Positions 36,488-64,000 of a stretch of 64,000 nt of DNA are shown here, piece by piece (position 1 is the stretch's first letter; each line of letters opens with the position of its first letter). Both the position numbers and the translations under genes were made by a program. Where the stretch lies: the NCBI GenBank assembly GCA_947561395.2, contig OX387190.1, forward strand, positions 18,842,858 through 18,906,857, written 5' to 3'. Below the pieces are notes generated by a model. It was not told the origin of the DNA, did no database searches, and worked only from the letters and a program-made list of their open reading frames with translations. This DNA is from Buxus sempervirens (lineage: Eukaryota > Streptophyta > Magnoliopsida > Buxales > Buxaceae).

Positions 36488-37559
36488 TGTGTCGAGCGAC
36501 AAGTAAATCCGGGTCTTAATTAAAATTTAAGACAATAAATCCGAATTCACTCATCTATGAACACTAACAATCATCTGATACCAACAGATAATACATGCTC
36601 ATAAAATATATCAGAGTGCAATAAATCTAATAATGGTAAAGCGGAAGACTTAAATGAATATCTATCTCGAAATCATAATCTCAGAATGTAAAAACACTAA
36701 AATGAAATACAATTAAGTACAATGAATAAAACGATAACTGCTATACCTCTACATCTGGATCTACCCGAAACCAACTGCCAATACTCTGGAATCTGCACAG
36801 TCTATATATAATAAACTAAATGAGATCGGAGATCCCAGTACGCCATCATATGAGAAATTAAATAAACATGCAGATATATCTCAAATCATAATACATCACA
36901 AGTAATCATGTGCAAGTGAGACAACCCTATATCTCACTAAATAATATGAATTCACTGTAAGCACCCAAATTTTGATCAAACAAAAAAAAAGAAAAAAAAA
37001 GAAGAAGAAAAGAAAAGAAGAAAACAAAAAATGTGCTAAAAGACAGCAGAAAAGTCAAACCGCGAGGGGACAAAAGTTTAATTTTTGATCAAGTGCAATT
37101 TGGCCACCATACTTCCTCCTAATGATTAGGAAATTCCGACACGATTCTAACGCAACTGAGCTTGCTCAGATCGGAGTCCGGATGAGGAAGATATGAGCCG
37201 GTCAAACTTGAAGGGAAGCCGAAAGTTGACTTTTTGTTAAACCCCGAATCAATTGCTTAGTCTTATCCCAATGGATATAGGACTCCGATACAGTTCTAAC
37301 GCAACTGAGTTTGCTCAAATCGGAGTCTGGATGAAGAAGATATGATCTGTTGAAGTTTTCGGGCAACAAAAGCCGGAAACTGCACACGTGGCAAGAAACG
37401 CAGGAAAATATCTCGGGGGGCAATCCGTGAATATCCAAACATGCAAGATATCTCAGGGACTAAATCAAAAAGTCGCAGGGACCAAATCTGTGAATATCCA
37501 AGTTTATCGGAGTAATCTGCAAATATCCAGGGAGCAAATATGTAAATATCGGATTTGTA

Positions 37560-37805
37560 TCCGATCATATATGTCAGATACACATATTTTTGTGTATATC
37601 CGACATTATTGGTCAAATACAAGAGATACGATGTGCGATTCACGTCGATTCACTGACGGATTTGCATAGAAAAATTAAAATTTTTGAAATAATTGTGTTT
37701 GTATTTGACATTTTATGTCGGATACAAAGGAAGTACAGTGTATCCAACATAAAATGCCGGATACAAAGGAAGTGTAGTGTATCCGACATTAAATGCCAGA
37801 TACAA
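37560..37805 (+). promoter_or_regulatory. GTATCCGACAT dyad array upstream of the A2 TATA box
   Basis: Repeated GTATCCGACAT/ATGCCGGATAC half-sites form imperfect palindromes about 39 bp apart, the last ending about 10 bp before TATAAAAA (37815). The arrangement is shared with A3 (42470-42715) and resembles B2. Confidence 0.5.
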
Positions 37806-37814
37806 AAATTTGCC

Positions 37815-37822
37815 TATAAAAA
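37815..37822 (+). promoter_or_regulatory. TATA box of LTR A2
   Basis: CCTATAAAAAGGCAGCAGC, matching TCTATAAAAAGGCAATAGC in A3. Confidence 0.7.
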
Positions 37823-40800
37823 GGCAGCAGCAGCCCCATTTCGGGGGTTGGCTGTTTTTCCCCTTTCTTCCCTCTTTGTTCCTGCTCTGAAATCCCTTCC
37901 TCTTGTCCCCCTTTGGCTCCCCAAACCCTTCAAGCATTACCTCAAGGCTCTCCCACTCTCTCTTTTCTTCTTCTTCTCCATTTTCCCCCAAGCAAGGAGG
38001 AGGTTTGCTGCTGTTAGTGGTGCAAGAGGACTGTCCAACTACTGTTTGGCTTCAAGAGGAGTTCCATACTCAACGAAAGGGTTCTAAAACCCTCAGGTAT
38101 TGACTCTCATCATCTTTGTTCATACATATATGAAAATGAAGGCTTTTTAGAGTGTTTTGCTTTCCTTAGCATAAGTCTATTCTCATGTTCAGTTTCCACA
38201 TGTTTTTCCTTTGTCTCTCTAATATGGAAGTCTCCAAAGGTAAGGGAGGCCTATCCATGATCCAATGGGAGGATGAGGGCTTTTCTCCATATTTTTTGGT
38301 GTTCCTGGCTACTGTATTACATGTTTGGTTTCATTTTGGGTGGGAGCATGTTCCCTTTTAAGAACCCATCCAATGTATCCCTAATGTAACCCCCCAATGC
38401 TCTTTCCCTTATTTCTTTCTTTTCTATATTTTATTTTCTTATGATGAATGTTTCTAACATGCTATAAGTTATACGTAGCATGCATGTATAGGTGCATGAA
38501 AATCCCACCAGCGTGCTCCTACCCCCTTTGTCTATACCCCACTACCAACTTTTACATGCCATGATAGGAAATTTGTCGATTGCTCTGTGGATGTTCTCTT
38601 TTGGGAAGCACGCCTAAGTGAGTATGTGTTTGTATGCACCATGTCTTGACTAGTGTTTTTTTTTGGTTTTTTTGTTTTCTTAAGCCCCATGTGATCCCCT
38701 TTTGTGTGTTTAGTTTGCTGTTAGATGAGATAGTGAGTAGAATTCGCATGTGCTTAGTTGCTTGGTCATCTATCCTCTGGTTTTGTTCACTTGTTGGTAG
38801 ATGGACTAAGTGAGACCAAAACAGGGACGGCTTGGTCCCTATTTCATGAAAGATGGCAATCCAAATGGGAGAAAGCAACTCCCTATGCCTTCTCCTCCTT
38901 TCCCATGATGCAAACCCCCTAAAAAAGACAAAGAGAGGGGGTATTCCCCCTCCACAAAACCATGGTGGGCCCACGTAGGGGCCCACGCAGCTCCTGGAAC
39001 ATCTCCAAGAGCCTGGAAACCCAATCCCCTTGCATAAGGCCCGAAAAAACCTCTCTAGGTGCTGATCCGACAACTCAGGTCAGATCAGCCTATGTTCATT
39101 TGTAGCCGACATCTAAGATCGGCTACATATGCTCCCGTGTGTAGCCGACAACTCAAGTCGGCTACACTGCTGAAATCTCATTTGCTGTTTTTTTTGTGTT
39201 ACATATAATGTTCTTGCTCTCTTAATCGAACCGAATGAACCAGTAGGGTTTTCGGGCGACCCGGAAACCCAAAATGGGACGGAGACCATTCCGGTCCAAT
39301 TTGGTACCTGGTGGGCTTTCCAACGGGGCCCACCAATCCCGACCAACTCACTAGGATGTAAATAAGAAAACTAAGTTAATCGAGTGGGCCAGACCATCCG
39401 AGGCCCACCAAGGCCCAATCTTGAAGCATGATGGCTTAGCTTAGGTTGTGGTTTGGCCAAGACCAAGGGCAAGGCCTGTCGGGCCCACTAAGTCCATTGA
39501 ATCAACAAGGTTAGGGTTTCCAAACCCTAACTCAGGAAGCCTCGGGCTTTCAAGCCCAAACCCAGGTAAAGGGCCCCAAGCCCAAAGCCTGGTCCATTTT
39601 GGCATAACTAATCAAGATAACTCAAATCACTTGGCAACCAATTGTGTGGCTCACCCAGGGGCCCACGAAGCAATCCTGGCCCACTTGGCATGAAAATCAT
39701 CTAAAATCCTAAACCTGAACTTCAAAGTAAACTCAACTCAACTGAACCAAAGCCCAAAGGGCCTCTCAGGCTAGACTGAGGCCCACCAGGGGGCATGTGG
39801 ACTTAACCAAGCCCACCAAGGAATCCACGAGCCTTCCAACGGGGCCCGCCCAACCAGACTCATCTCACTTTAACTAAAGAAGATAAAATCAAGTAAAGGG
39901 ACCCACACCACTTTGGCAGTCCCGCAAGACTCAATAAATGTGCATGCTGGAATAGGATTCGGGTGAGAAACCAAATTGACTCAAAACTAGGACGGGACCC
40001 GTCACCTGACGGGGTGAACTGGGGTGTCTACGGACTTCCCCAGACCGCAACCGAGACCTTAACCAAAATCTCAAGCCGCAGACTGCCTAATAGAAAAACC
40101 TAGGTACCCAGATGTCTGCCTGCACCCCATCAGGCAGTGGCGACTCCAACCTTCCCGAATTACCCTTTAGGAGGCACACCCACCCATGCGACCATGCGCA
40201 CATTCACAACAAGGTTCAAAAGAATTACAATAATCATCAAATGGAATATATAAATCAATTTATAACTTAGAACCAAACCAATTCAATTAATCCGATAAAC
40301 CATTCATATTATATCACAAGGCTAATCAATGTAATGTCCAGCCGAAACTATAGACATCGGCCAGGACTACAACTATAGTATTTAGACTGGGATGCACAGT
40401 CCTTGGATCATAAGATCACCACACACAACACATTTCGGGTAAATCCCCTTTTACCGGGAAATACCAATCACATCGCTCACACTGCCAAGAGGAATCAAAT
40501 GTCTCGACTGGCTTTGCCAAGAGGAATCACACATCTCGACTGGCTCACATCACAAAACAAATAAAAACATACCGAGAGGAATCCTCAACATAACCAGCTT
40601 CGTCGCTCTAATCAGTACAACTCCCTTTACTCCTATACTGATGAGCCCTCACACACTCAAGTTTTAATTATCTTTTTATGCATCCACACAAACTGCTGGA
40701 TATCCAAAACATAATAAGGATCTCTCTTAAGATCAAATAGTGAAATTCATTTGGCCCTTACTAACCAGTAAATTGCTAACCCACTATTGATAAGTTAAAC

Positions 40801-42469
40801 TTATCACAGGGTAAAGCCATTTTAATAAGGGTGCAATATACACAAATCAAAACTATAAATACTCAAGTGTGGATTGACCTAATCAAATATGCATATTTTT
40901 CAAAAATAAGCATACTATAATATAAAATGCAATTTGGAAATATGCTAGTGGAATTCACAAAAAATATTTAATAACAAGGATAAACATCATTGTTTGAAAC
41001 TTACTACAGATATATAATCGATAAAACCCAATTAGGGCTCTCTAATGCAAATAAATGAATCATCACACAACCATTCTCGTACAATTCCCCACTTTTAATT
41101 AAATTGACCAAAATTCTCTTTCATGCAATAGGCTAAATTTCACCTATATTACAATTTTCTCTTTACTTTTATTAAATTGACCTTATCATATTTTTAAATT
41201 AATTTATAAATCTTAAAAATCACTTTTAAGCACTTTTTCATTGAATTTTAATTTTCTTTCAAGTTTTGACTAAAATGTAATTATTTATTAGGATTTGAAA
41301 CTGATTTGTTAAATTTAATTTAAATCTGAATAAAAACTTAATTCTTTAAGTACTGTACACTAATTTATAAATAGCTCTCACATTATATACTAAACCTAAA
41401 TATTGATTCTATATATAACTGTTTTCGGATTAATATACAAATTTTGTACTGAAAATTACTTACTTTCCACGTGTCGACGATAGCACTATTCATTCATTTT
41501 CTGTGATTAAATGACCTACTTTGAGGATTTCTCTAGATCAATCCAGGAATCCTCTTAACCTAAAATCAGTTCCTACGTAATCTACACTTGGTAAACTAAT
41601 TTTTAAGCTATTAAACTAAGATTTAGAATAATGTTTACATAGTTTTGAAGACATCCCAGAACTTCTCAAAACCATTTGAAACAAATGAACTAAAGAGAAA
41701 AAGAGAGTTTCCGTGATGCTCTCTATGATCCAACTGAAATCAATTCAAATCTTAATAATGCCAAGCCACAACCATTCATTGAATTCCAAGCCATGGATTA
41801 TACTTAGGATCTAAGGATGCACAGGAGTTAAGATGTCAACTTCAATAAGCCCAGAATAGTAAAACCAGTTGTAAGCACCTTATTTTTGCACCCCTGGAAG
41901 TGTTGAAAATGAAAACTCTGGCAGAAAGTCAAACCCTGAGGGGACAAAAAGTTGACCTTTTGATCAGGTGATAATTGGACGCTTTGCTTTATCTCAATGG
42001 ATAGAGAATCCTGACACGAGTCCAACGCAACTGAGTTTGCTGGAATCGGAGTCCGGATGAAGGTTCTGTGGGCCGGTCAAACTTGAGGGTGAGCCGAAAG
42101 TTGACTTTTTTTGAACCCCGTGCCAGGTGCTTAGCTCTACATCGTTGGATAGAGGGCTCCGATACGATCCTAACACAATTGAGTTTGCCCAAATCGGAGT
42201 CCGGATGAAGGAGATATGAGCTGTCAAAGGTCCCGAGCAGCAAGCCGGAAGCTGCACACGTGGCAAAGAAACTGCACACGTGGCAGCGAACGCAGCAAAA
42301 TATCTCAAGGGGCAATCTTTAAATATCCAAAACTTGCCAAATATCTCAAGGACTAAACCAAAATTCGCAGGGGGCAATATGCAGATATCCAAAAGTGTCA
42401 AATCGGTCGAATCAGTCAAATCGGTCAAGTCGAGGGGCAAATCCGTAATTTTTTCAATTTGTATCCGAT

Positions 42470-42715
42470 CAAATATGTCGGATACACATGCTTTTATTCA
42501 TATCCGACATATAATGCTGGATACAAGAGATTTGCCCGCGAGATTCGCGCAATTCGCTGACAGATACGCGCAGAAAATTAAATTTTGGAAATGATTGTGT
42601 TTGTATCCGATATAATATGCCGGATACAAAGGAAGTGCAGTGTATCCGACATAATATGCCGGATACAAAGGAAGTATAGTGTATCCGACATTAAATGCCG
42701 GATACAAAAATGTTT
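42470..42715 (+). promoter_or_regulatory. Dyad array upstream of the A3 TATA box
   Basis: At least four units with GTATCCGACATAATATGCCG or close variants, each followed by GATACAAAGGAAG, end just before the TATA box. Half-sites are conserved while the central three or four bases vary. Confidence 0.55.
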
Positions 42716-42716
42716 C

Positions 42717-42724
42717 TATAAAAA
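42717..42724 (+). promoter_or_regulatory. TATA box of LTR A3
   Basis: TCTATAAAAAGGCAATAGCAG directly after the dyad array. Confidence 0.7.
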
Positions 42725-45700
42725 GGCAATAGCAGCCCCATTTCCGGGGTTGGCTTCCCATTTCTGTTCTTCCCCTTTCTTCCCCCTCTGAGCCAGCTCC
42801 GAAACCTCCAACCTTTGCCCCTCCTTGCACCCCAAACCCAACAACCTCCTTGCTTGACCATTTTACCCTTCCCTACTCCCTTCTCTCCCTCACTCAAGAA
42901 CTTGAAGAAGGGGAAGAGGCTACTGTTGGTGGGAGGAGGTGCTACTCCAGCTGCTTCCTTCACTTTAAGGAGGCTCCACACATCTCATTCCAGGGTTTTA
43001 ACCCTAAGGTATTGTTTCTTGCTACCATTTGTTTCACATATATAAAAATAAAGTGATTTTGAGAAGGTTTTAAGAGTCTTGTGTTTTTTGTTTGAAATGC
43101 ATCTTTTGACATGGCTTTTATGTGTTTCCCCCTTTGCTTTCTTCGCATAAGATGCCTCCCGTGGTAGGGGGAGTGAGTATGGTCTCAAGCAATGGAGGGT
43201 TCCTATTTGCATGTGGTCTTAAAGGCATTTTTTATGCCATGTGTCGCCATGACTTTGTTCCATTCGAATGGGGGGAGGGTTGTTCCCCCTTGGTTGATCA
43301 TCCAATGTAACCCCTATAACCCCCCTTTTCTCAACCCTTCTTGGTGGTTTCCTCTCTCGCTAAGTAAGGGGCTGTTTCAAGCATGGTTAGAAAGGAAGCA
43401 TGCATATGTGTAAATGTGGGAATGTTTAGTGATTAGGAAGTATGTATGTCTGTGTATGAGCATGATCCCTCTCCCCTTCTTTCCTGTCTTTTCCTCCGTT
43501 GGTGGTTGCTGTTCTGGGCGCAAGCAGCGACCTTTGCATGTTAAATGAGCAAGCTTATGAGTCATTCTTGAGGTTGCTGTTATTGGCAGCAGCAGCGCCT
43601 TACTTTCTTTTAATAGTCTTCATTAACATTCTATTATTCACCGAAATCACAGCATGCTCCCCAACCCCCTTTAGATGCTTGTTGCGTTGTTCATTCCCAT
43701 GCACCCTAGGACGAAATATAGGCCTCAAATGGAGCATTGTTTTTTATGGATTCCTTTCTCTTGTTGATCATATTGATTGCTGCTCCTTTGGCTGTGAACA
43801 ACCGGAACCGAGGTACACGACCTCTGTTCCTTTGACGGATTCAACCCAAGAGAAAGACAAAGAGGAAGCCCCCACTTGTCTCCCTAGTTTGGCTTGGAAA
43901 GCCCCAAAGAAGAGCCGAGTGGCTCTCACCTGAACCAATGTGGGCTCACACAGGAGCCCACACAATCCCTGGAACCCCTGAGAAGCCTAGGAACCCAACC
44001 CCAATGCAAAAATCTGGAAAAAGGCTTTTGTATGTTAATCCGGCAACTCAGGCCGGATCAACAGAGCCCCATTCGTAGCCGGCAAAAGATGCCGGATACA
44101 CTGAGCTCTGTGTGTAACCGGCATCTCAGGCCGGCTACACTGCCAGAATACCATTTTTCGCCATTTTCTGATCTTGTGCTATATTTTTGGTTTGTTTGAT
44201 CAATCCGGGCGAACCAGTAGGGTTTCCGGGTGACCCGGAAACCCAAGATGGGCCATGGACCGACCCGGTCCGAATTGCTTCCCGGTGGGCCTTCCAACGG
44301 GGCCCACCAAGCTCGACAAACCTATTGTGCTTAAATAAGATGATTAAGAGAGTTGAGTGGGCCAGACCCTTTGAGGCCCACCAAAGCCCAACTGGGGCAA
44401 CATGCATGTTTAGATCTAGGTTTGGTTTGGCCGAGACTGCGGGTAGGCCCGATCGGGCCCGCTAAAGCCCATTAAATCGAACCAATTTTAGGGTTTCCAA
44501 ACCCTAACTCACGAAGACTTGGGCTTTCAAGCCCAAGCCCAGGTAAAGGGCCCCAAGCCCAAATCCTGGCCCACTTTGGCACAGATTAAGAAAGATAATC
44601 AAAAATACTTTGCAACCAACTGTGTGGCCCACTCAAGGGCCCACAAAGCAATCCCGGCCCACTTTGGCATGGAAATCCACTTAAATAATCGAACTTGAAA
44701 TCCAAATAAAATTAATTCATTTGAACCAAGCCCAAAGGGCCTTTCAGGCTAGACCGAGGCTCACTAGGGGACACGTGGGCTCAACCAAGCCCACCAAGGA
44801 ATCTACAGACCTTCCAACGAGGCCCGCCCAATCAGACTCATCTCATCTTTAACTAAAAAGATAAAATCAAGTAAAGGGACCTACACCGCTTTGGCGGTCC
44901 CATTAGACTTAACCGAATTGAATGCTGGATTAGAAATCGGGTGAGTGAGAGACCAAAGTTGACTCAAACCAGGAACCTATGGGACCCGTCATTTGACGAG
45001 GTGGACTGGGGTGTCTACGGACTTCCCCAGACCGCAACCGAGAACTTGCTTAGAGTCTCAAGCCGCAGACCAAGCCTTAATAGACAAGAATAGGCACCCA
45101 GGTGTCTGCTTGCACCCCATCAGGCAATGGCGACTCCAAACAATCCCGAGGCACGCATCGCTTTGCGTGCGCCTCATCGTGCGACCGAAATCAGGTGCGC
45201 ACACCAGTAAACTTCAATAAGCCAAGAACTTACATCTGAAACCAGATTTAAGCTATTTAACTAATTGTTTTGCTAATTCCTAATACGTATAGTAGCGATT
45301 AAATCTTTCAATTCAAAATCAACATAAGTGATGGTCTTACCTGATTTTGCAGATTCAAAACTCAGTTGGAAGATGATGATGTCTGCGGTTCCAACCCCAA
45401 TCACCAACTCTAAGCTACTCCAGTTATATACTCTTCTTTGGACTCTACCAGAAGCAATGGATTGAGAGAGAGTAGAAGATTGAGAGGGAGAAGAATAGCA
45501 GATGGGAAGAACAAAGCTGTGGGCAGGAAATTACGAAGCTGTCGACAGGAAATTGAAGGCGGTTTCTCTCTTTCTCTCCCGACTCCATTCAATCTAAAAT
45601 CTTAAATAAACTTAAACCCGCTCCTATACTCTACACCTCCACCTAACTATCCTACGAATTGCTCCCAATCAATCCGATACATACCTAAACTAAAATAGCC

Positions 45701-48616: not shown

Positions 48617-49538
48617 ATAATGCAGAAAATCCTTATATCAATTCTATTTTCTGTCTGAAAACGAAACAACCCAGAAGCAAAACGCTCTTTTATCGCTCAA
48701 CCCCACTGAGAAAAATTCAGTATCATCCTTTCATATTCTCAAAGGACATATAGCAGCAAAAAATAGAGAAAACACATTCCATCTTTTTGATCTTGATAAA
48801 CATTATTCTATCATGGCCTTGCTCACCAAAAAATACAAATTAAGAACACGAGCATGAGATTTTTCCGAAAGTTTTGAAGTCAACTGCATTTTAAACAAGT
48901 ATCTACAAATTCATGTTAACAATAACAAACAAAATAATGCTCAGCTCTAGAAGCTCAAGAAAATTTTAGTGATTTTTGATAAAAAAAATACTAAAATTTG
49001 GGGAAATTTGTAACCATGACTACCGGACTTATGGTGGACTTATTTAGTGAATCAATATTTGCATTTCTAATGGAGGATTTTCTGGTCTAAGGTAAGACTT
49101 TCAGAAAACTCTTCTAGGGGTTTGGTTAGGGATTTTATCCTCCATGAAGTATAATGACAAAGAAAAATAATTGTAGACATCAATGAGCTGGTGTCAGAAC
49201 CCCAATTTTGGGGGTTTAAATTCAAGAAACAGTAAAGGGGACTTTTTGAAATAAAAGTTGAAAAATAGGAGAAATTTGAAATTTTAAAAATTAATTTTTT
49301 ACCCTGAACTTTTTAAAATATCAAGAGTGGAATTAACTTTCTTAAATTTTCAAAAATGTGCCCCAGAATCTCATGAATGTGCTTTTTCTTTATTTGATAC
49401 ATGGGTTGTCATTTTGGCAACCAAAATCAAGAAAAATTATGCTAAAACAAATCCTATGTCAAATAAAGTGGTTAGGGTAAGAATTAGAAGGTTTCTTGAA
49501 GAGATTGACGATTTTTTTATAATTTCAAAAACTTTCTA

Positions 49539-49960
49539 GGGAGAAAATTAATTTTTAGTGATACTTTATGAAAATATTTAAAATTTAGTTAGCTAGGTTT
49601 TGACTTGTGTTTCAACACACCTTTATCAAACTAATTAACATTTAGTGGCATTCCACTGTTGCAAACCCATTTATTCCAAGAATGCCCTTTACCTGATTCG
49701 TACGAAAAGTTAAAAGGTTTCCGGTAGTGTGTTTCAGTACACCTTTACCAAACTAATTAACTTTTAGTGACATTCATTATTACAAGCCGAATGCTTCCAA
49801 GAAAGCCCTTTTCTCATTTTAAGTAAAATAGAAAATTAAATACATAGATTTCAAAGAATGCCGTTGTTATTGGAGATTTATTGAATTAAATAAATTTCTA
49901 AAAGTACCATTTTGCCCCCAACATTCTGCTACGTTTTCTTTTTTTTTTTAGAAAATAAAG
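49539..49960 (+). repeat. MULE2 outer TIR, left
   Basis: Non-satellite outer part of the arm. Within it GTGTTTCAACACACCTTTAT and GTGTTTCAGTACACCTTTAC (about 49608 and 49728) show an internal duplication of about 120 bp. The inverted partner is about 56540-56962 and a diverged direct relative is 58391-58720. Confidence 0.85.
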
Positions 49961-49984
49961 AAAGAAAGGGAAGAGAGAGAGAGA

Positions 49985-51715
49985 GAGAGAGAGAGAGCGT
50001 CTCAATAAAATGATTTGTAAAATACTTAAAACATTTTTACCATTTATTAATTAACTTCTACAATATCATGTATTGACTTATATAGCTATAAGGTAACATG
50101 TCCCACTTATTATAATGATTTTCACAATATATATATTGTACCGACTTGTATGATTATTTACAACTTGTACGACTCAATAAAATAACTTGTACCTTCTATC
50201 AATTGATTTGTATAAAAATATGCACTAACTTATATGCCTATGGAGATTTTATACATCTATGAGATGAATTGTACAATGCTATATACTAACTTATGCAGCT
50301 ATAAGGTGACTTGTACCACTCAACCAAATGACTTGTACCCATTATAAGTTGACTTGTACAACAGTATACACTAACTTGTATACTTATATAGACTTATACC
50401 TCTTTGTCAGATGACTTGTACAATGCTGTATACCGACTTGTACATTTATGGGATGACCTTTACCACTCAACCAAATGACTTGTACCTTCTATTAATTGAC
50501 TTGTACAACAATATACATTGACTTGTATGCCTACAGAGACTTATAAATCTCTGTCAGATGACTTGTACAATGCTGTGTACTAACTTGTACATTTATAGGA
50601 TGACCTATACCACTCAACCAAATGACTTGTACTTTCTATCAATCGACATGTACAAAATACACACTGACTTGTATGCCTACAGAGACTTATATTTATCTAT
50701 CAAATAACTTGTATAATGCTATATATTGACTTGTATATTTATAAGACAACCTGTACCACTCAACCAAATGACTTATACCTTCTATCAATTGACTTGTACA
50801 ACACTATAAACTACTTGTATGCCTACAGAGACTTACACGTCTTTGTCAAATGACTTGTACAGTACTGTGTACTGACTTGTACATTTATAGGGCGACCTGT
50901 ACCATTCAACTAAATGACTTGTACCTTCTATCAATCGACTTGTATAACAATATACACTGACTTGTATGCCTATAAAGACTTATATTTATCTATCAAATGA
51001 CTTGTATAATGCTATATACAGACTTGTATATTTATAGGATGACTTGTACGACTCAATAAAATGAGTTGTACCTTTTATAAATTGACTCGTACAATAATAT
51101 ACACTAACTTGTACAACAATATACACTGCTATATACTAACCTATGAGATGACTTGTACTAACTTGTATAATTCTATATACAAACTTTTATAACTTCTATG
51201 AGATGACTTGTACACTGCTATATACTAACCTACACAGCTATAAGGCAACTTGTACCACTCAACCAAATGACTTGTACCTGTTATCAATTAACTTGTACAA
51301 CAAGATACACTAACTTATATGCCTATATGGACTTATATCTCTTTGTCAGATGACTTGTACAATGCTATGTACTGACTTATACAGCTATAAGGCGACTTAT
51401 ACCACTCAACCAAATGACTTGTACCTGTTATCAGTTGACTTGTACAACAATATACACTGACTTGTACACCTACAGAGACTTATACATCTCTGTCAGATGA
51501 CTTAAACACTGTGTGTGCTGACTTGTATATTTATAAGGCAACCTTTACCAATCAACCAAATGACTTGTACCTTCTATCAATTACCTTGTACAATAATATA
51601 CACTGATTCGTATGCTTACAGAGACTTTTATCTTTCTATCAAATGACTTGTACAATGCTATCTACTGACTTATATATTTTTAAGACAATCTGTACCACTC
51701 AATAAAATAACTTGT
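49985..51715 (+). repeat. Satellite array of about 147-bp monomers, MULE2 left arm
   Basis: CAAATGACTTGTACCTTCTA recurs with spacings of 147, 146 and 146 bp (50472, 50619, 50765, 50911). Within each monomer GACTTGTAC recurs about every 20-30 bp, so the monomer probably grew from a shorter unit. Some monomers towards the centre are partly deleted. No protein is encoded. Confidence 0.9.
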
Positions 51716-51829
51716 ACTCTCACTCCCTCCCCCCTCTCTATCTCTCTCCTTCTCAAGGATTTTACAAGTCATTTGATTAACACCCTCCCTTCCTACCTCC
51801 CCTTCTCTTGCTTCCCCGTTCGCCTTATA

Positions 51830-52257
51830 GCTGCAAAGTCAGTACATAGTACTATATAAGTCATTTGGTGGAGAGATATAAAATCTCTATAGGCATACAA
51901 GTCAGTATATATTGTTGTACAAGGCAATCGATAGAAGTTGCAAGTCATTTGGTCGATTGGTAAAGGTTGACTTATAAATTTACAAGTTAGTACACAGCAT
52001 TGTACAAGTCATCTGACAGAGAAGTATAAGTCTATATAAGCTTACAAGTTAGTGTATACTATTGTACAAGTCAACTAATAATAGGTACAAGTCATTTGGA
52101 TAAGTGGTACAAGTCGCATTATAGCTGTATAAGTCAATACATAGCATTGTACAAGTCATCTGACAGAGAGATATAAGTTTATATAGGCATACAAGTTAGT
52201 GTATATTATTGTAAAAGTCAATTGATAACAGGTACAAGTCATTTGGTTGAGTGGTAT
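51830..52257 (-). repeat. Satellite array, MULE2 right arm, inner part
   Basis: Same monomer in inverted orientation (GTACAAGTCATTTGGTTGAG). The array is cut at 52257 by solo LTR A4 and resumes at 55442. Confidence 0.9.
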
Positions 52258-55200
52258 TGTGCGTGCGTGGGAAACGTGGCACGGGGGAATTCGGAGTCGC
52301 CACCGCCTGATGGGGTGCAGGCGGACACCTGGGTGCCTCAGTTTGTCTACTTTAGGCTTTGGTTTGCGGTTTGAGATTCTAAGTCGGGGTCTCGGTTGCG
52401 GTCTGGGGAAGTCCGTAGACACCCCAGTCCACCCCGTCAGATGACGGGTCCCGTGGGTTCCCTGGTTTGAGTCAGATTACTTTGGTCTCACCCAATTCCT
52501 AATCTAGCATGCCATTTGTTTAAGTCTGGTGGGACCACCTGGGTGGTGTGGGTCCCTTTAATTGATTTTATCTTGTTTTACTTAAGTTATCTGAGTCTGA
52601 TGGGGTGGGCCCTATTGGAAGGCCCACGGTGTCCTTGGCGGGCTGGGGTGAGCCCATGTGCCCCTGGTGGGCCTCTGTCTAGCCTAGGAGGCCCTGTGGG
52701 CTTTGGTGAGGTAACTTGATTTTATTTAGTTTATTCAAGTTTGGAGCCTAATGTGATTTTCATGCAATAAGTGAGTTCGAATTGGTTTGCGAGCCCTTAG
52801 GCGGGCCCCCATGGTGGTTGCCAAAGTATGTTGGATTTGCTTTATTTAAATTTGCCAAGATGGGCTGGTCACTAGGCTTGGGGCCCGTGATCTAGGTTTG
52901 GGCTCGAAAGCCCAGTTCTTTGAAGTCTAGGGCTTGCACCCTAACTTGGTTCAGTTAGCGGGCTTTGGCGGGCCCGATAGGCCCTAGCCCTTGGTCTCGG
53001 CCAAACCATGCAATTCGTATATTCATTCCACACAACAAGGTTCGGGTGGGCCGCATTGGGTTTGGCCCACCCGGTTCAATTAGTTCACTTTATTTAATCT
53101 TACTTATTTGCATGCTTTGGAATCCGTCGGGCTTGGTGGGCCCCATTGGAAGGCCCACAAATGTGCCATATTGGACCGGTGGTCCAGGTCCCAAGTTGGG
53201 TTTCCGGGTAACCCGAAAACCCTATTGGTTCACTTGGTTTGGTTCAAATCATCACCAAATTCGGCTAAGGATCAAGAAGACACAAAAAAATTATATTTCT
53301 GCATGTATCCGACCTTAGTTGTCGGATATACACAAGCTTTAGGTGATCCAGCCTGAGTTGCCGGATCACCACAGAATTGCCTTTTTTGGGGTTTTGCCAG
53401 TTGGGATGCCTCTGTGGGCTCCTTGGGGTCTTTCTACAAGCTGTGTGGGCCCCTGGATGGGCCCACGTTGGTTCAGGTTTGCGAGAGAGGCCTCATTTGG
53501 CCTTCCTTTGGGGACTTTCCAGCAAGGCAATGGGGGGAAGAGGCATCCGGGCTGCCTCTTCCACTTGGGATCATGTGTGTAACATGGCAGGGACCAAGGT
53601 GTCCCTGCCTTGGTTTCTGAATCTCCATCCCAGCCTACAACAAGGGTCCATGGAGAACCCTTTGAATCAAGGACTGGAGGCATGCTCCCACGATTGACCA
53701 ACACATGCATGCTTACTACTTTAACCCTGGAGATAGCCATCGTGTGGAGGGGTTCAACATGCTTACGCCTACGCATGCAAGGAAATGCTTTAACATGCAT
53801 GAACAAGTAAGTACAGCTAAGGAAAGCTAGAACTTATTACCAATCAGTAGAATAAAAAAAACCACATAGCATGTGAGAAACAACAGAAATCAGCAAAAGG
53901 AAACTCGACGCATGCAAGGAGACCAATGGGACTAATCATGATTCTGACGTGCATTTCCTACACCTCTTAGCAATATCTGAACCCAAGGCTTCATGCTTAA
54001 GCCTACGAAAATGTAGAGAAGGGTGAGAGAAGGGGGTTTACATAGGGATACATTAGATGGGGGGGGCCAAGGAACATGCTCCTTGAAAAATATGCTTGGG
54101 TCAACCCTATGGACAGAGACTAGTGAACATTATCAATGGCATAGAAAGAAGACTCACATGCTCCCAAGGAGCCAAACGTAGACCCTTGCTCGTGGAGGGT
54201 CTCATGCCATGCAGAGGAAGATAAGTGCATGCTTGAACAACATAGACATGAACTCATGCAAGAGGTGAAGACAAACTTGGAAATCATTTTATAAAATCCC
54301 TATTTTAACATATGTGCAATAAGACATAGTGAGGAACATTACCTGACAGCTCTTGACCTCTTGTATGGGGTGGAGACACCTCTTGGTGGCAAACCAGTGG
54401 CTGGAAGCTCCCCTCCTTGGCAGCAGCAGCAACTAACCACTTTTTGTATTAGTGAAGAGGTGGTGAAGAAGGAGAATCCAAGAGATGGAGTGGTCTTGTA
54501 ATGGTAATGGGGTTATAGAGGGCAAAGAGGGTTGAAGAAGAAAGGACTCAAGTGGGAAAAAGTGGGGGAAGAAGGTAAAAAACACGCAAGAAAAGCCAAC
54601 CCCGGAAATGAGCTGCTGTTTGCCTTTTATAGACAAACTTAATGTATCCGGCAACTCAGGTCGGATACACTAAGCACTCTTCATATCCGGCCTCTATTGC
54701 CGGTTACACAGGTCTTCCTTTGTATCCGGCATTCAATGCCGGATACAAAACATAATTATTTGAAAATTTAATGCCGCCGCGAATTTGTCGGGCGATCGGC
54801 GCGAATCTCGCGCAAAAATCTTTTTGTATCCAATATTTGAGTCCGGACATACATAAGGGTATGTGTATCCGGCATATTTGACCAGATACAAATCAAAAAA
54901 TTACGGATTTGCCCTTCGACTTGATCGATTCGACCGATTCGACACTTTTGGATATCTACGGATTGCCCCCTGTGAATTTTGGATATTTAAGATTTAGTCC
55001 CTGAGATATTTTGCTGCGTTGGCTGCCACGTGGGCAGTTCTTGTGCCACGTGTGCAGTTTCCGGTTTTGCTGCTCGGAAACTTCGACAGCTCATATCTCC
55101 TTCATCCGAACTCCGATTTGGGCAAACTCAATTGCGTTAGACTCGTATCGGAGCCCTCTATTCAATGACATAGGGCTAAGCACTTGGCATGGGGTTCGAG

Positions 55201-55441
55201 GAAAAGTCAACTTTCGACTCATCCTCAAGTTTGACCGGCCCACAGAACCTTTATCCGAACTCCGATTCCAGCAAACTCAGTTGCGTTGGACTCGTGTCTG
55301 GATTCTCTATTCAATGATATAGAGTAAGGTGGCCAATTATCAATTGATCAAAAGGTCAAAATTTTCACCCCTTAGGGTTTGACTTTTTAGCTGGGTTTTG
55401 CATTTCCGGCTTTTCGGGAGCGCAAAAATGAGGTGCTTATA
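52258..55441 (-). mobile_element. A4: solo LTR of family A inside the satellite array
   Basis: On the minus strand it starts TATAAGCACCTC (55441; one base from TGTAAGCACC) and ends CACGCACGCACA. The TSD is GGTAT (52253-52257) against GGTAC (55442-55446), one mismatch; the satellite sequence GTGGTACAAGTC shows GGTAC was original. It is 3,184 bp, with a minus-strand TATA box and the same dyads as A2 and A3. The 3' part is GGGCCC-rich. Confidence 0.9.
54624..54631 (-). promoter_or_regulatory. TATA box of LTR A4
   Basis: TCTATAAAAGGCAAACAGC on the minus strand, preceded by GTATCCGAC/CCGGATAC dyads (54640-54750). Confidence 0.65.
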
Positions 55442-56350
55442 GGTACAAGTCACCTTATAACTATACAAGTTAGTATATAGCAATGTACAGGTCATCTCAT
55501 AGATGTATAAAATCTCCATAGGCATACAAGTTAGTGTATATTATTGTACGAGTCAATTTATAAAAAGTACAAGTCATTTTATTGAGTCGTACAAGTCATC
55601 CTATAAATATACAAGTCAGTACACAGCATTGTACAAGTTATCTAACAAAAATGGATAAGTCTCTGTTGGTGTACAAGTCAATGTATGTTGTTGTACAAGT
55701 CAATTGATAGAAGGTATAAGTCATTTGGTTGAGTGGTACAAGTTGTCTTAAATATACAAGTCAATATATAGCATTGTACAAGTTATTTGATAGATAAATA
55801 TAAGTCTCTGTAGGCATACAAGTTAGTGTATATTTTGTACATGTCGATTGATAGAAGATACAAGTCATTTGGTTGAGTGGTATATGTCGCTCTATAAATG
55901 TACAAGTTAGTACACAGCATTGTACAAGTCATCTGACAGAGATGTATAAGTCTTTGTAGGCATACAAGTCAGTGTATATTGTGGTACAAGTCAATTAATA
56001 GAAGGTACAAGTCATTTGGTTGAGTGGTACAGGTCTTCTCTTAAATGTACAAATCAATACACAGCATTGTACAAGTCATCTGACAGAGAGGTATAAGTGT
56101 ATATAAGTATACAAGTTAGTGTATACTGTTGTACAAGTCAACTTATAACATGTACAAGTTATTTGGTTGAGTGGTACAAGTCGCCTTATAGCTGTATAAG
56201 TTAGTATATAGCATTGTACAAGTCATCTCATAGATGTATAAAATCTCCATAGGCATATAAGTTAATGTATATTTTTATACAAGTCAATTGATAGAAGGTA
56301 CAAGTTATTTTATTGAGTCATACAAGTTGTAAATAGTCATACAAGTCGGT
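55442..56350 (-). repeat. Satellite array, MULE2 right arm, outer part
   Basis: Continues the inverted monomers. TTGTACAAGTCATCTGACAG and CATTTGGTTGAGTGGTACA motifs recur every 146-148 bp where intact. Confidence 0.9.

Positions 56351-56353
<3 letters not shown>

Positions 56354-56435
<82 letters not shown>
56354..56435. repeat. (TA)n microsatellite, about 41 units
   Basis: The paired place in the left arm (about 50131-50150) has only ACAATATATATATTGT, so the run expanded in the right arm after the two arms formed. Confidence 0.95.
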
Positions 56436-56438
<3 letters not shown>

Positions 56439-56539
56439 GAATACATGCTATTTTAGAAGTTAATTAATAAAGGGTAAAAATGTTTTAAGTACTTTACAAA
56501 TCATTTTATTGAGACGCTCTCTCTCCCCCCTTTCTTTCT

Positions 56540-56962
56540 TTATTTTCTAAAAATGAATAAATAACAAACGTAGCAGAATGTTGGGGGCAAAATGGTACTT
56601 TTAGAAATTTATTTAATTCAATCGATCTCGAATAACAACGGCATTCTTTTTAATCTATGTATTTAATTTTCTATTTTACTTAAAATGAGAAAAGGGCATT
56701 CTTGGAAGCATTCGTCTTGTAATAATGAATGTCACTAAAAGTTAATTAGTTTGGTAAAGGTGTACTGAAACACACTACTAGAAACCTTTTTACTTTTCGT
56801 ACGAATCAGGTAAAGGGCATTCTCGGAATAAATGGGTTTGCAATAGTGGAATGCCACTAAATGTTAATTAGTTTGATAAAGGTGTGTTGAAACACAAAGT
56901 CAAAACCTAGCTGATTGAATTTTAAATATTTTCATAAAGTATCACTAAAGATTAATTTTCCC
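56540..56962 (-). repeat. MULE2 outer TIR, right
   Basis: Inverted partner of 49539-49960, ending ATTAATTTTCCC before the TSD AACTTTCTA. Confidence 0.85.
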
Positions 56963-57134
56963 AACTTTCTATCAACTAGCTAACAGTCGACAAAGACTCT
57001 CTAGGATATGCCCTCTCCCTCTCATTCAATTTTCCCTTGATCTGAGATCTTCTAGATGGGGCTGGAGATTCTTTCTTGCTAAAGCTAAGCTCTTTCCAAC
57101 TCTCTCTCTCTTTTCCGAAAGGACAATCAGCCGT

Positions 57135-58390: not shown

Positions 58391-58709
58391 GGGAAAATTA
58401 ATTTTTAGTGATACTTTATCAAAATATTTAAGATTCAGTCACCGAAGTTTGGACTTGTGTGTTTTAGAGCACCTTTCTCAAATTATTTAAGATTCAGTGG
58501 TCATTCACTGTTCCAAACCATTATGCCCTTTTCTCATTTAAATAAAATAAAAATTAAATACACAGGTTTCCAAAATTACCCTTGTTACGTTTGGAATTGA
58601 TTGAATTAAGTGTATTTCCAAAAGTGCCCTTTGCCCCAACTTTCTTATTTTTTGTCTTTATTTTTTTTCAAAAATAATAAAGAAAGAAAATGAGGAGAAA
58701 GAGGGTCTC

Positions 58710-60709
58710 AACAAAATGACTTGTACAATAGTGTATCTAGATTTGTACTGTTATAAAATAACCATACCACTCAATCAAATCACATATATATAATATGTGC
58801 CTATAGAGAGACTTGTTATCTTTACCAAATGACTTGTACAATTTTATGTACCGACTTGTACAACTCAATCAAATGACTTGTACCTTCTATCAATTAACTT
58901 GTACATCAATATACCCTAACTTGTATGCCAATATAAACTTACACTTCTTTATCAAATGACTTGTATAATGATACGTACTGACTTATACCTTTATAGGAGC
59001 ACATGTACCACTCAATTAAATGACTTGTACCTTCTATCAATTGATTTGTACAACAATATATACTAATTTGTATGCCTATACAGACTTATACCACTCTATC
59101 AAATGACTTGTACAATGCTAAGTATTGACTTATACATTTATAAGAGGACTTGTACAACTCTATCAAATGACTTGTACTTTCCACCAATTGACTTGTACAA
59201 CAATATATACTAACCTGTATGACTAAATAGACTTATACCTCCTTATCAAATGACTTGTACAATAGAATGTACTGACTTGTACCTTTATATGGATACCTGT
59301 ACTACTCAAGTACATGACTTGTACCTTCTATCAATTGACTTATACAACAATATACACTAACTTGTACGATTATATAGACTTATACCTCCTCTATTAAATG
59401 ACTTGTACAATGCTAAGAACTGACTTGTACATTTATAGGAGAACCTGTACAACCCGATCAAATGACTTGTACATTCTACCAATTGACTTGTACAACAATA
59501 TATACTAACTTGTATGACTAAATAGAAGTACCTCTTTATCAAATGACTTGTATAATATAATGTAATAACTTGTACCTTTATAGGGATACCTGTACCACAT
59601 ATTCAAATGACTTGTACAACAATATACACTAATTTGTACGATTATATAGACTTATTCCCCTTCTATGAAATGACTTGTATAATGTTAAGTACTGACTTGT
59701 AAATTTATAGGAAGACCTGTACAATTCAATCAAATGACTTGTACATTCTATCAATTGATTTGTACAACAATATATACTAATTTGTATGACTAAATAGACT
59801 TATACCTCTCTATCAAATGACTTGTAGAATACAATGTTCAGACTTGTACCTTTATTGGGGGTACCTGTACCACTCAATCAAATGACATGTACCTTCAATC
59901 AATTGAGTTGTACAATAATATAAACTAACTTATACGATTATATAGACTTATACCCCCTCTATTAAATAACTTGTACAACGTTATGTACTAACTTGTATAT
60001 TTATAGGAGGACCTGTACAACTCAATCAAATGACTTGTACATTCTACCAATTGACTTGTACAACAATATATGCTAACTTGTATGACTAAATAGACTTATA
60101 CCTCTCTATCAAATGACTTGTACAATACAATATTCTGACTTGTAGCTTTTTGGGTACCTGTACCACTCAATCAAATGACATACATTCTATCAATTAACTT
60201 ATACAGCAATATACATTAACTTATACGATTATATAGACTTATACCCCTCTATTTAATGACTTGTACAATGTTAAGTACTGACTTGTACATTTATTGGAGG
60301 ACCTATACAACTCAATCAAATGACTTGTACATTCTACCAATTGACTTGTACAACAAGATATACTAATTTGTATGACTAAATAGACTTATACCTCTTTATC
60401 AAATGACTTGTATAATACAATGTTCTGACTTGTACCTTTATAGGGGTACCTGTACCACTCAATTACATGACTTGTACCTTTTATCAATTGACTTGTACAA
60501 CAATATGCACTAACTTATACGATTATATAGACTTATACTCTTCTATTAAATGACTTGCACAATGCTAATTACTGACTTGTACATTTATAAGAGGACATGT
60601 ACAACTCAATCAAATGACTTGTGTATTCTACCAATTGACTTGTACAATAATATATACTAACTTGTATGACTAAATAGACTTATATCTCTCTATCAAATGA
60701 CTTGTACAA
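58710..60709 (+). repeat. Satellite array with dimeric higher-order structure, MULE3
   Basis: Two monomer types alternate: one with CAACTCAATCAAATGACTTG then ATTCTACC and AAATAGAC, the other with CCACTCAATCAAATGAC then CTTCTATC and GATTATATAGAC. Start-to-start spacings at 60021, 60166, 60311, 60458 and 60605 are 145, 145, 147 and 147 bp, so the dimer is about 290-294 bp. The array is interrupted by G2 at 60710. Confidence 0.88.
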
Positions 60710-61257
60710 TGTAACGCCCCGGATCCGTGTTCTTCATTAAAGATATAACACGTCTCCTAGGGGTTAGTTAAGGATCTCAATAATGGTGATCACTGGATAA
60801 TCACCCACATTTTATATCACATCAGAGTGCACAATTCAAAATTTATATCCAGGCAAGTTATGTAATCATCACATACATCAGATGGGCCCAAGTTTACTAT
60901 CTTATTACAATTCCTCAAATTCAACTTAACAAGTTTAAGACCAAACAACCTGCTGGACTAAGGTCGGTAGTAATAATCCTCCTCCCTATATGTATCAGCC
61001 GGATCTACCCCCGTAGGCACCTCACCACGAATATCTGAAAAACAAAGCAACAACGAGGGAATGAGATACGAATATCTCAGCGAGTGACACATGCATGCAG
61101 AAATAGTTAACACAGTTATAAGACATGCTTCGACAAATAACCAACGATAATAACAACATAATTCCGATAACAACTCAAACCAGGTCAATGTTATGCATAT
61201 GGTTACATTGATTAATTTACATGCCAAGTAGATACTCCACACCTCCATGTACACAAT

Positions 61258-61385
61258 TCCGGCCTACTCAGGGTTTCGGAAACTCTGAAATGACGGCCTA
61301 CTCAGGGTATCGTCATCCAATGCCGGCCTACTACGGGTATCGGCACTGACAACCAGGCCTACTCAGGGTATCTTGCTGCTCTACA
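61258..61385. repeat. GGCCTACTCAGGGTATCG minisatellite in G2
   Basis: Four imperfect copies, GGCCTACTCAGGGTNTCG and variants, spaced about 33-40 bp, in a place equivalent to the minisatellites of G1 and E. Confidence 0.75.
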
Positions 61386-61911
61386 CTGGTCGTGGCAACA
61401 CACGTGGCCATGCAATTACACCAACAAACACATACCATCACATTACTAAGCTTAACAAGGATCCATGGGAAGCTAAACCCAAACCGATAAATAACCGTTT
61501 AAAACTCTGCATTAGTACACATCACCTGTGGTCCCAACCAGAACATCAACTCACACAAGTGTTCCAACCAGAACATCAACTCACACAAGAAATCAAGTAA
61601 ATAATATTTACAACTTAATTCAAAACTTGCCATCAAAACGGGGTTTAATAAATCAAATCAAGTACCAAACAGTGCATGCTTCAAGAGGACTAAAATAAAG
61701 CCCTAGTATGTAGATATCCCGAACATCTTCGACTTATTTCCCAACATCTACTTCATAAGCCTTTACTAAACCTAGGATCTATCTTCAATGTTCTCACAAG
61801 CAAATTTTTATCTCTAATGTCGTAAACAATTATTTGGGTAAGTGGTCGAAGACCCTCTAGCATCCCAAACCCCTTGGTTTTATGAAATTATAGGATTCGG
61901 CAAGAAAAACA

Positions 61912-62170
61912 ACTGGGCGCTCACTTCCCTAAGTGGGCGCCAGGTAGGCGCCAAGTGGGCGGTGACTCATTTCATGAAAATGAGGCTGGCGCTCACTCGT
62001 GGACGAGTGGGCGCAAGCCAGGCGCCAGACGGGCGCGAGAAGAGCGCGAGAAGGGCGCTGGAAATTGAGGTAGGCGCGAGCTGAGCGCAGAGTGGGCGCT
62101 AGCTCGGCGCCGGGTCACATTTCTGGGCGCTTACTTCCCGAAGTGGGCGCCAAGTGGGCGGTGACCCACT
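61912..62170. repeat. GC-rich GGGCGC minisatellite in G2
   Basis: Dense GTGGGCGC, AGGCGCCA and GGGCGCGAG variants, with CTTCCCTAAGTGGGCGCCA near 61924 and CTTCCCGAAGTGGGCGCCA near 62132. A sharp GC island in otherwise AT-rich DNA, in the promoter-proximal part of the LTR if it reads on the minus strand. Confidence 0.75.
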
Positions 62171-63071
62171 GCGACTTTCAGTTCTCTGTTAATCCCAGAA
62201 CTCCAACTCTGGCTGAATTTTTCCTGTCTGTAACTACTTATCTAGCCTCCCAACACTCCCAGGACACATTCAAACCTATTGTGGATTTAATCTAACATGA
62301 TTTCCAATTATCCCCAATTCCACTGTACAAAACCCTCCGTAACTGTTTTTGCCCAGAAAACACCGAGAATACTTCAATCATAAACAATGCATTCATTCAA
62401 CCAAATACACGAATAAACCCGAAACCTCAGTTGTAAAACTCTGCCACTCACTTGTATGCGCTTAATCCTAGAACAACAGCTTCTTCCAAAATCGGCCGAG
62501 CACGACTCCGGCTGCGCGCGAAGATGAAATGGTAGCCGAACAATTCCTCTGCTCGCGAGAGAGATAACCCGCAGAAATCCGACTCCAATGAACTCCTAAC
62601 AGTCCTTCCGAGTCTTGCTCTTCATGGAATAACCCCAATCGCCATTACAGCCGCAATTGCCAAATCGCCCAGCCCTCTCCAGCTAACGAGACTAATGAAA
62701 ATTACTTCCGTAAGTTACGTGTATTCCTACAACCCAAACCCTACTTTCCCTTTTCGGTATCTTTACCTCGCGAGACATACGCCGCTTGATAACTTTCCCT
62801 TTTTCCTTGATCCTATGCGCGCTCGCCCGCTGGAAACCCTACATATTCCGCATCCACTTACGTTAATAAGCAGACACTATACTTTAATAATAATAAAATA
62901 ATAATATAATTTTTTCCAGAAAAACGGCTATATAACGCCTGTACATACGAGTATGGGCTAAGCCCTCAAACCACAAAAATCACCTGATAAACACAGTATA
63001 TATATATATATATCAAACTGAATAACTAAATAAATAAATAAACTCACCAAAAATCAGGGTCTTACATACAA

Positions 63072-64000
63072 TACAATGTTCTGATTTGTACCTTTATAGG
63101 GGTACATGTACCACTCAATTACATGACTTGTACCTTTTATCAATTGAATTGTATAACAATATACACTAACTTATACGATTATATAGACTTATACCCTTGT
63201 ATTAAATGACTTGTACAATGCTAAGTACTGACTTGTACATTTATAGAAGGACTTGTACAACTCAATCAAATGACTTGTACATTCTACCAATTGACTTGTA
63301 AAACAATATATACTAACTTGTATGACTAAATAGACTTATACCTCTCTGTCTACTAATTAATATTAAATTATAAAATATCTACAATCTCCCTAAATTTAGA
63401 GTTAAAATATGGACAATTAAGTCAAATTATGGTTTAGATAACCCAAATCGTAATTTAAATTTGAGAGCCTGTTCTTAAAATTTCTAATCCGCGTATTTGG
63501 AACGAATTTAGATAAAGTGCGTCAATTCGTGTTTTGAACATGGGAGCGGGAAGAGATTCACACAAATTAGGTAACTAAGCCTGTACCACTCAATCAAATG
63601 TTTTGTACCTTTTATTGATTAACTTGTACAATAATATATACTAACTTGTATGCCTATATAAACTTATACCTTTCTATCAAATGACTTGTACAATACAATG
63701 TACCGACTTCTATTATTACAGGGCCACTTGCACGATACAAATCAAATGACTTGTACCTTGTATCGATTGACTTGTACAAGAATTATATGTTAACTTGTAT
63801 GCCTATATCTCTCTATTAAATGACTTGTACAATGTTATATACTGACATGTACACTTACAGGGGGACTTGTACCACTCAATTAAATGACTTGTAAATTTTA
63901 TCGATTGACTTGTACAACAATATACACTAATTTGTATGCTTATATAGACTTATCCCTCTCAATCTAATGACTTGTATAATGCCCGCATTAACTTGTACAT
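63072..64000 (+). repeat. MULE3 satellite array, continued to window end
   Basis: The array resumes after G2 in the same phase. Bases about 63345-63580 are non-satellite AT-rich DNA ending before CCTGTACCACTCAATCAAATG, then monomers continue to the window edge. Confidence 0.85.

Follow-up and report, generated by a model that had tools for sequence, protein, structure and literature searches.

Two copies of a foldback element, A and B, are found in a window of 64,000 nucleotides from Buxus sempervirens (C12:18842858-18906857; the assembly searched comprises 676.5 Mb in 247 contigs). Copy A spans positions 49539-56962, and copy B starts ∼1.4 kb from it (Table 1). Each arm of copy A consists of an outer terminal inverted repeat (TIR) of ∼460–610 bp and, inward of it, an array of monomers with a period of 147 bp. 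The arms are inverted with respect to each other around an unpaired centre. The start, the end, the inverted arms and the monomer period are as given in the first-pass annotation of this DNA, which had put the centre at ∼115 bp; it measures 118 bp.

Table 1. Coordinates in the window of the parts of copies A and B and of their inserts
Feature	Position	Strand	Remarks
Left target site duplication AACTTTCTA, copy A	49530..49538	.	identical to 56963-56971
Left outer TIR, copy A	49539..50000	+	tip GGGAGAAAATTAA, 2 extra bases; 85 bp direct repeat inside (49606-49690/49728-49811)
Left array, copy A	50001..51717	+	12 monomer hits, ∼147 bp each
Centre, copy A	51718..51835	.	118 bp, pyrimidine-rich on + strand
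Right array, inner part, copy A	51836..52257	-	
Nested solo LTR, copy A	52258..55441	+	TG...TA ends, flanks GGTAT/GGTAC; not foldback sequence
Right array, outer part, copy A	55442..56353	-	
Right outer TIR, copy A	56354..56962	-	tip GGGAAAATTAA read on minus strand
Right target site duplication AACTTTCTA, copy A	56963..56971	.	identical to left one
Left tip GGGAAAATTAA and outer TIR, copy B	58391..58705	+	72–83% identical to copy A, two aligned pieces
Array, copy B	58706..60709	+	294 bp (dimer) period
Solo LTR-like insert, copy B	60710..63066	+	TG...CA ends, flanks TACAA/TACAA
Rest of array, copy B	63067..64000	+	further insert ∼63357-63579; continues to ∼64300 outside window

The perfect 9 bp target site duplication (TSD) that was reported for copy A is present at both ends; a perfect 9 bp match at both tips is expected by chance at ∼4e-6 for random bases of equal frequency, and somewhat more often in AT-rich sequence. 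The arms had been described as ∼2 kb each. This holds when the nested insert is left out (2,179 bp on the left and 1,942 bp on the right), but the right arm as it stands also contains a solo LTR of 3,184 bp, an insert absent from the first-pass annotation. In an alignment of 2,228 columns, 335 of which contain gaps, the arms are 92.2% identical at aligned positions; the outer 420 bp of left and right are 95.4% identical over 415 aligned positions. The tips themselves do not match as first thought: the right one has the exact GGGAAAATTAA sequence that is found in 26 of 33 family tips listed, and the left one displays two extra bases.

Monomer hits number 12 in the left arm of copy A and nine in the right. 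The outermost left monomer (50001-50156) is divergent, and it is common to other copies by rank. A (A/G)A(C/T)TT(G/A)TA core is matched six times within the 147 bp monomer, at intervals of 18–22 bp. Simple repeats are also found in copy A: an (AT)41 run at 56354-56435, at the inward end of the right outer TIR, is absent from the left arm, and an (AG)13 run at 49972-49997 in the left arm is shorter in the right.

Copy B is represented by its left arm, with no inverted arm or right end up to window-equivalent coordinate 79843. Its array segments are ∼85% alike at an offset of 294 bp.

Related elements are abundantly found elsewhere in the genome. The outer TIR gave at least 50 matches on 12 contigs (40 of 1,384 candidates scored), a 120-base tip probe at least 66 matches (40 of 968 scored) and the monomer at least 308 (40 of 539 scored); these counts are lower bounds and are biased to close relatives. 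The 12 two-tipped copies analysed are those with both tips found among the fetched copies. Outside this set are L017 and L027, which have one end without a clear tip, a pair of tips on C15 (L020/L019) and L032, which was fetched without its left flank; the remaining fetched loci have one tip, a partial tip or none.

Seven of the 12 two-tipped copies have flanks that match at 8 or 9 of 9 positions: copy A, L012 and L016 at nine, and L011, L013, L018 and a 29.3 kb copy on C1 at eight. The remaining five match at seven (L023), six (L010) or three positions (L009, L014 and L015); L023 reaches 8/8 if its duplication is 8 bp, and L009 reaches seven with a 1 bp shift. Among 110 mis-paired controls, built from 11 of the 12 copies, none reaches 8/9, and the best value, seven, occurs once. 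The first-pass annotation had raised the prospect that most genomic copies of the outer TIR lack 9 bp duplications, and this is not borne out by the two-tipped copies.

With low-complexity filtering, no mutual match at E 1e-5 is found among the 400 bp flanks of the same 11 copies together with copy B's left flank. In a wider comparison, a 179 bp stretch, 72% identical, is common to L010 and L017 in their right flanks, at different distances from the element. An empty site is seen for L023, where a paralogous stretch 1.3 kb downstream is identical in 258 of 334 columns across the junction. No empty site was found among the fetched loci for the other ten of 11 joined flanks. The L012 element, with a perfect TSD and arms 98.7% identical, looks young. 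Because of the TSDs, the unrelated flanks, the empty site and the dispersal of the copies, the spread of the family is by transposition and not by local duplication. The two neighbouring copies of the window might suggest that a palindromic locus was multiplied by segmental or local duplication, as had been considered earlier, yet with outer TIRs on at least 12 contigs in addition to the flank, TSD and empty-site evidence this is exceedingly improbable.

Two widely spaced tip pairs are also found. The C1 pair was considered as an autonomous element and rejected: it is one element with flanks matching at 8/9, enlarged by insertions that include a stretch bounded by a pair of 95% identical direct repeats, and it displays no match to any of the probe proteins. 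The tips of the C15 pair are 31 kb apart, and their flanks do not match by eye. The 2.5 kb loop of L023 has open reading frames of less than 100 residues only.

Mutator-like elements (MULEs) produce TSDs of ∼8–11 bp, typically 9 bp, and their TIRs usually begin with G. The flanks of the two-tipped copies, compared with the mis-paired controls, and the predominance of exact GGGAAAATTAA tips agree with both features. The long inverted arms, which constitute most of the element, and the tandem-repeat structure are those of foldback elements. The sole transposase probe, the window's own unrelated MULE fragment, gave no transposase in the fetched loci. With none found that has these tips, Mutator membership rests on the TSDs and the tips. 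The original designation as a Mutator-type foldback thus stands as far as a mobile, Mutator-like foldback family is concerned, but a 9 bp TSD is typical of this superfamily and does not define it. A transposase of another superfamily that makes 8–9 bp duplications would leave the element a foldback but not a Mutator. Galileo, a P-type foldback element (PMC4079207, PMC3169594, available text), provides an example, and the search of the fetched loci with the one MULE-fragment probe is compatible with such an origin; the 9 bp duplications and the G-rich tips point the other way, and this alternative is very unlikely.

The MULE transposase fragments of the window, at 3579-5229, have DBD_Tnp_Mut, MULE and SWIM domains. 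The 13-mer GGGAGAAAATTAA occurs at 5460, just downstream of these fragments, and was considered as a sign of an autonomous partner. The outer-TIR search gives no match there, and the 13-mer represents copy A's altered tip and not that of the family; its occurrence at 5460 is therefore taken as coincidence.

Inverted arrays are present in 11 of the 12 two-tipped copies. The exception is L018, an element of 606 bp that consists of TIR only and is a MITE-like form of the family. Monomer hits per arm number 9–12 in eight copies, 2–5 in L013 and L015, and 4 and 13 in the C1 copy. Array-free palindromes of ∼340–430 bp with related tips are also found (L014:840-1201, L015:2382-2769, L028:9584-9919 and L051:500-930), some of which adjoin or sit inside foldback elements; no usable tip pair was found by script in these four.

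The centres of ten of the 15 copies compared are related (copy A, L009, L010, L011, L014, L016, L017, L022, L023 and L028), and those of the other five are without relation to the rest. With nine copies oriented according to centre sequence, the likeness of same-side arms is 0.855 vs 0.845 for opposite-side arms of different copies, and five of 256 orientation sets do as well as the centre-based one. Opposite arms within one copy are 0.860 alike. Since opposite arms are about as alike as same-side arms, some exchange between arms is possible.

The order of monomers within arms is informative with respect to the history of the arrays. Rank was counted from the outer end of each arm, and 1000 rank shuffles within arms served as control; the test covers the closest copies scored by the searches. 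In a first set of 286 hits, of which 244 were near full length (42 were left out), the nearest relative of 232 monomers is in a different arm. Among the 232, 69.0% pair within one rank and 49.1% at the same rank, compared with shuffle means of 27.8% (maximum 39.7%) and 9.6% (maximum 19.0%), respectively. Without the outermost monomer and copy B (n = 207) the values are 66.7% and 48.8%, with shuffle means of 29.7% (maximum 42.0%) and 10.8% (maximum 21.3%). Between copies, same-rank identity clearly exceeds different-rank identity at ranks 0–4 (0.852 vs 0.769 at rank 1), and the excess is nearly gone by ranks 9–10. As the excess fades inward, the inner arrays are either less ordered or the rank numbers drift there.

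A larger set of 461 hits, of which 97 incomplete ones were left out and 364 used, gives a similar picture. The nearest relative is in another copy for 291 monomers, in the opposite arm for 52 and in the same arm for 21. Of the last, copy B contributes 12, L035 six, the C1 copy two and L040 one, so the own-arm homogenization typical of classical satellite DNA is confined to 21 of 364 monomers, of which copy B and L035 account for 18. Since a monomer mostly has its nearest relative in a different copy and at a similar rank, the monomers are positional orthologues, and the array travels as an ordered unit in most copies. The two-armed array most likely predates the spread of the family and was inherited in order with little homogenization. 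Copy B and L035 look to be the only arms with clear local re-amplification; 12 of 18 monomers in copy B, and six of seven in L035, have their nearest relative in their own arm.

The relationship of the arrays to free-standing satellite DNA was assessed at 31 array loci counted by hand among the monomer matches listed, a part of the 308. A family TIR accompanies 28 of these 31, contrary to the earlier concern that arrays at unrelated sites might be tip-less. At 27 loci the TIR is in the fetched stretch or in the outer-TIR search (the locus at C10:42.846 Mb is known to have one from that search alone), and at L048 a tip lies ∼3 kb further on. One of the 27, at C12:22.55 Mb, is interrupted by ∼8 kb. 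The other three loci, L041, L047 and L050, display no TIR within the 3–4 kb fetched and have six, five and seven monomer hits, respectively, arranged head to head; they are element remnants. L041 may be the other half of L040, a tipped half-array at a distance of 22 kb. A long tip-less 147 bp array is not among the 31 loci, a partial census with 40 of 539 candidates scored.

Where the monomer came from was also considered. Its alignment to the outer TIR scores 11, compared with a shuffled median of 10 and a 95% point of 14, which is no similarity beyond shuffles. There is therefore no sign that the monomer arose from the TIR, and a derivation from it was dropped.

That the family can move and amplify satellite DNA, as the first-pass annotation proposed, is supported in part: tandem repeats are carried round the genome, but amplification as stated is not supported, most arrays being passed on by rank. 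On this proposal the family is an active disperser of satellites, in which monomers amplified in the arms are released as free satellite loci. The own-arm relatives in copy B and L035, the 294 bp period of copy B and the precedent of Tetris, a foldback element of Drosophila virilis (PMC4079207, available text), favour such a process. On the other hand, for 343 of 364 monomers the closest relative lies in another arm, for the most part at a similar rank, and the three loci of 31 that are without a family TIR among the matches listed (40 of 539 candidates scored) are inverted remnants of 5–7 hits, so that this is distinctly unlikely as a description of the family. Copy B and L035 display local re-amplification, and thus the family could still provide a route for the seeding of satellites. 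Alternatively, a pre-existing genomic satellite might have been captured between MULE ends, the elements being only carriers. The dissimilarity of monomer and outer TIR, a point on which the family differs from Tetris, is in keeping with capture; no free-standing parent array is seen among the loci examined, however, and the rank order common to the arrays points to one founding array. Capture is a possible origin, although a rather unlikely one.

It is highly probable that the family is a dispersed non-autonomous foldback transposon that is moved by a Mutator-type transposase in trans and whose array was built once. The family plan consists of an outer TIR of ∼420–600 bp, an array that in well-kept copies numbers ∼9–12 monomers of 147 bp, and a short centre, purine/pyrimidine-rich, beyond which the mirror image follows. 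A Mutator-type transposase made elsewhere would bind the outer TIRs, and the whole palindrome would be cut and pasted, with ∼20 monomers moving as ordered cargo. A single founding array would have been built before the family spread, and later unequal exchange may have re-amplified arrays in a few arms (copy B and L035). Deletion would give rise to the array-free MITEs.

FARE of Arabidopsis is a plant foldback family classed with MULEs and has long palindromic ends. It is cited in the available text of two reports on other Mutator foldbacks (PMC4486113, PMC3169594). One of these concerns MuTAnT of Medicago truncatula, which, like the Buxus family, is a plant MULE family with foldback structure. 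MuTAnT elements differ in that they are mostly 200–300 bp, target (TA)n and have a known putative autonomous member, and satellite-sized arrays are not mentioned in the available text (PMC4486113). Among the entries listed from mostly non-subscription literature, titles and abstract openings revealed no plant foldback of the Mutator type whose arrays are of satellite length.

A close likeness is seen with Tetris. According to the available text of its description, Tetris is non-autonomous with no transposase found, and its TIR comprises an outer flanking domain, satellite-sized tandem repeats (∼220 bp) and an inner part. Its TSDs are 8–10 bp, with Mutator membership suggested by the authors, and it has a MITE relative without repeats, DAIBAM (PMC4079207). 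All of these features have a counterpart here, the last in the array-free form. The two families differ in the plant host, the 147 bp monomer, the 9–12 hits per arm in well-kept copies and the inheritance by rank. In addition, the Tetris monomer shares 37 bp with its outer TIR, and here there is no detectable likeness; Tetris repeats also occur as satellite arrays with as many as 66 copies, and here a partial census displays no long free array (PMC4079207, available text). Judged by these likenesses, Tetris is a close precedent of the architecture, and its seeding of satellite DNA is already on record. It is cited by two reviews (PMC9659126, PMC12628747, available text).

Shorter repeats are found in two other animal families, as far as the available text of the reports goes. 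Tm1, a Mutator/Foldback family of root-knot nematodes, has composite TIRs with tandem repeats as seen here. Its TSDs are most often 9 bp (8–10 bp in 45 of 53 complete elements), and there are MITE-like members. Unlike the Buxus family, Tm1 has repeats of ∼14 bp, 1–9 per TIR, and some members encode a Phantom-like transposase (PMC3169594). Muta1 of Aedes aegypti, called a type 2 foldback, and its relatives are MULEs with 8–9 bp TSDs, again as here, and subterminal tandem repeats are present in ten of 12 long-TIR families. Differences are the repeat length of 9–15 bp and a Muta1 transposase that is active in yeast (PMC5225508). Compared with the known Mutator foldbacks, the ordered inheritance of arrays is the distinctive new point.

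An architecture described from a fly, a foldback whose arms contain repeats of satellite size, is extended here to a plant family of many copies. Arrays moved as ordered cargo and arrays that re-amplify (copy B and L035) can be compared in one genome, and the step from transposon part to satellite could thereby be measured. If the genome has no free arrays, the family represents a counter-example in which satellite-like repeats alone are insufficient to seed satellites. A more speculative idea, to which we give little credence, is that the transposon retains the ordered array as a part of itself, and not as junk. The nucleosome-length 147 bp monomers, made of 21–22 bp subunits, would be held in rank either for transposition, as repeated protein sites, or for silencing, through a 2 kb hairpin transcript, with single copies such as copy B and L035 occasionally breaking the order and re-amplifying. 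Mu killer is a precedent for silencing by inverted repeats. If the idea is correct, copy B and L035 would represent the birth of plant satellites from a Mutator foldback in progress.

Other sequences neighbour the foldback copies. Beside copy B, outside the window, is a broken gene (L029:1118-4244, minus strand) with plant-mobile-domain/DUF1985-like and Ulp1 protease parts. It has relatives 81–86% identical at four other places in the genome, among 150 matches listed that go down to ∼35%, and one protein in a large protein collection is 41% identical. With respect to the gene as cargo of the element, the 2 kb beside one of the four relatives are without array, TIR or shared flank. An open reading frame at 31823-32338 displays weak similarity to Ty3 capsid/gag, below Pfam cut-offs. 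Relatives of the solo LTR nested in copy A are found in the window on the minus strand at 31166-31506, 37038-40147 and 41872-45140, the main pieces being 71–80% identical, and some of the related pieces carry TGTATCCGGCAT-type tandem repeats. A further relative outside the window, which extends from L029 into L030, has TG...CA ends and is flanked by CTAAC/CTAAC.
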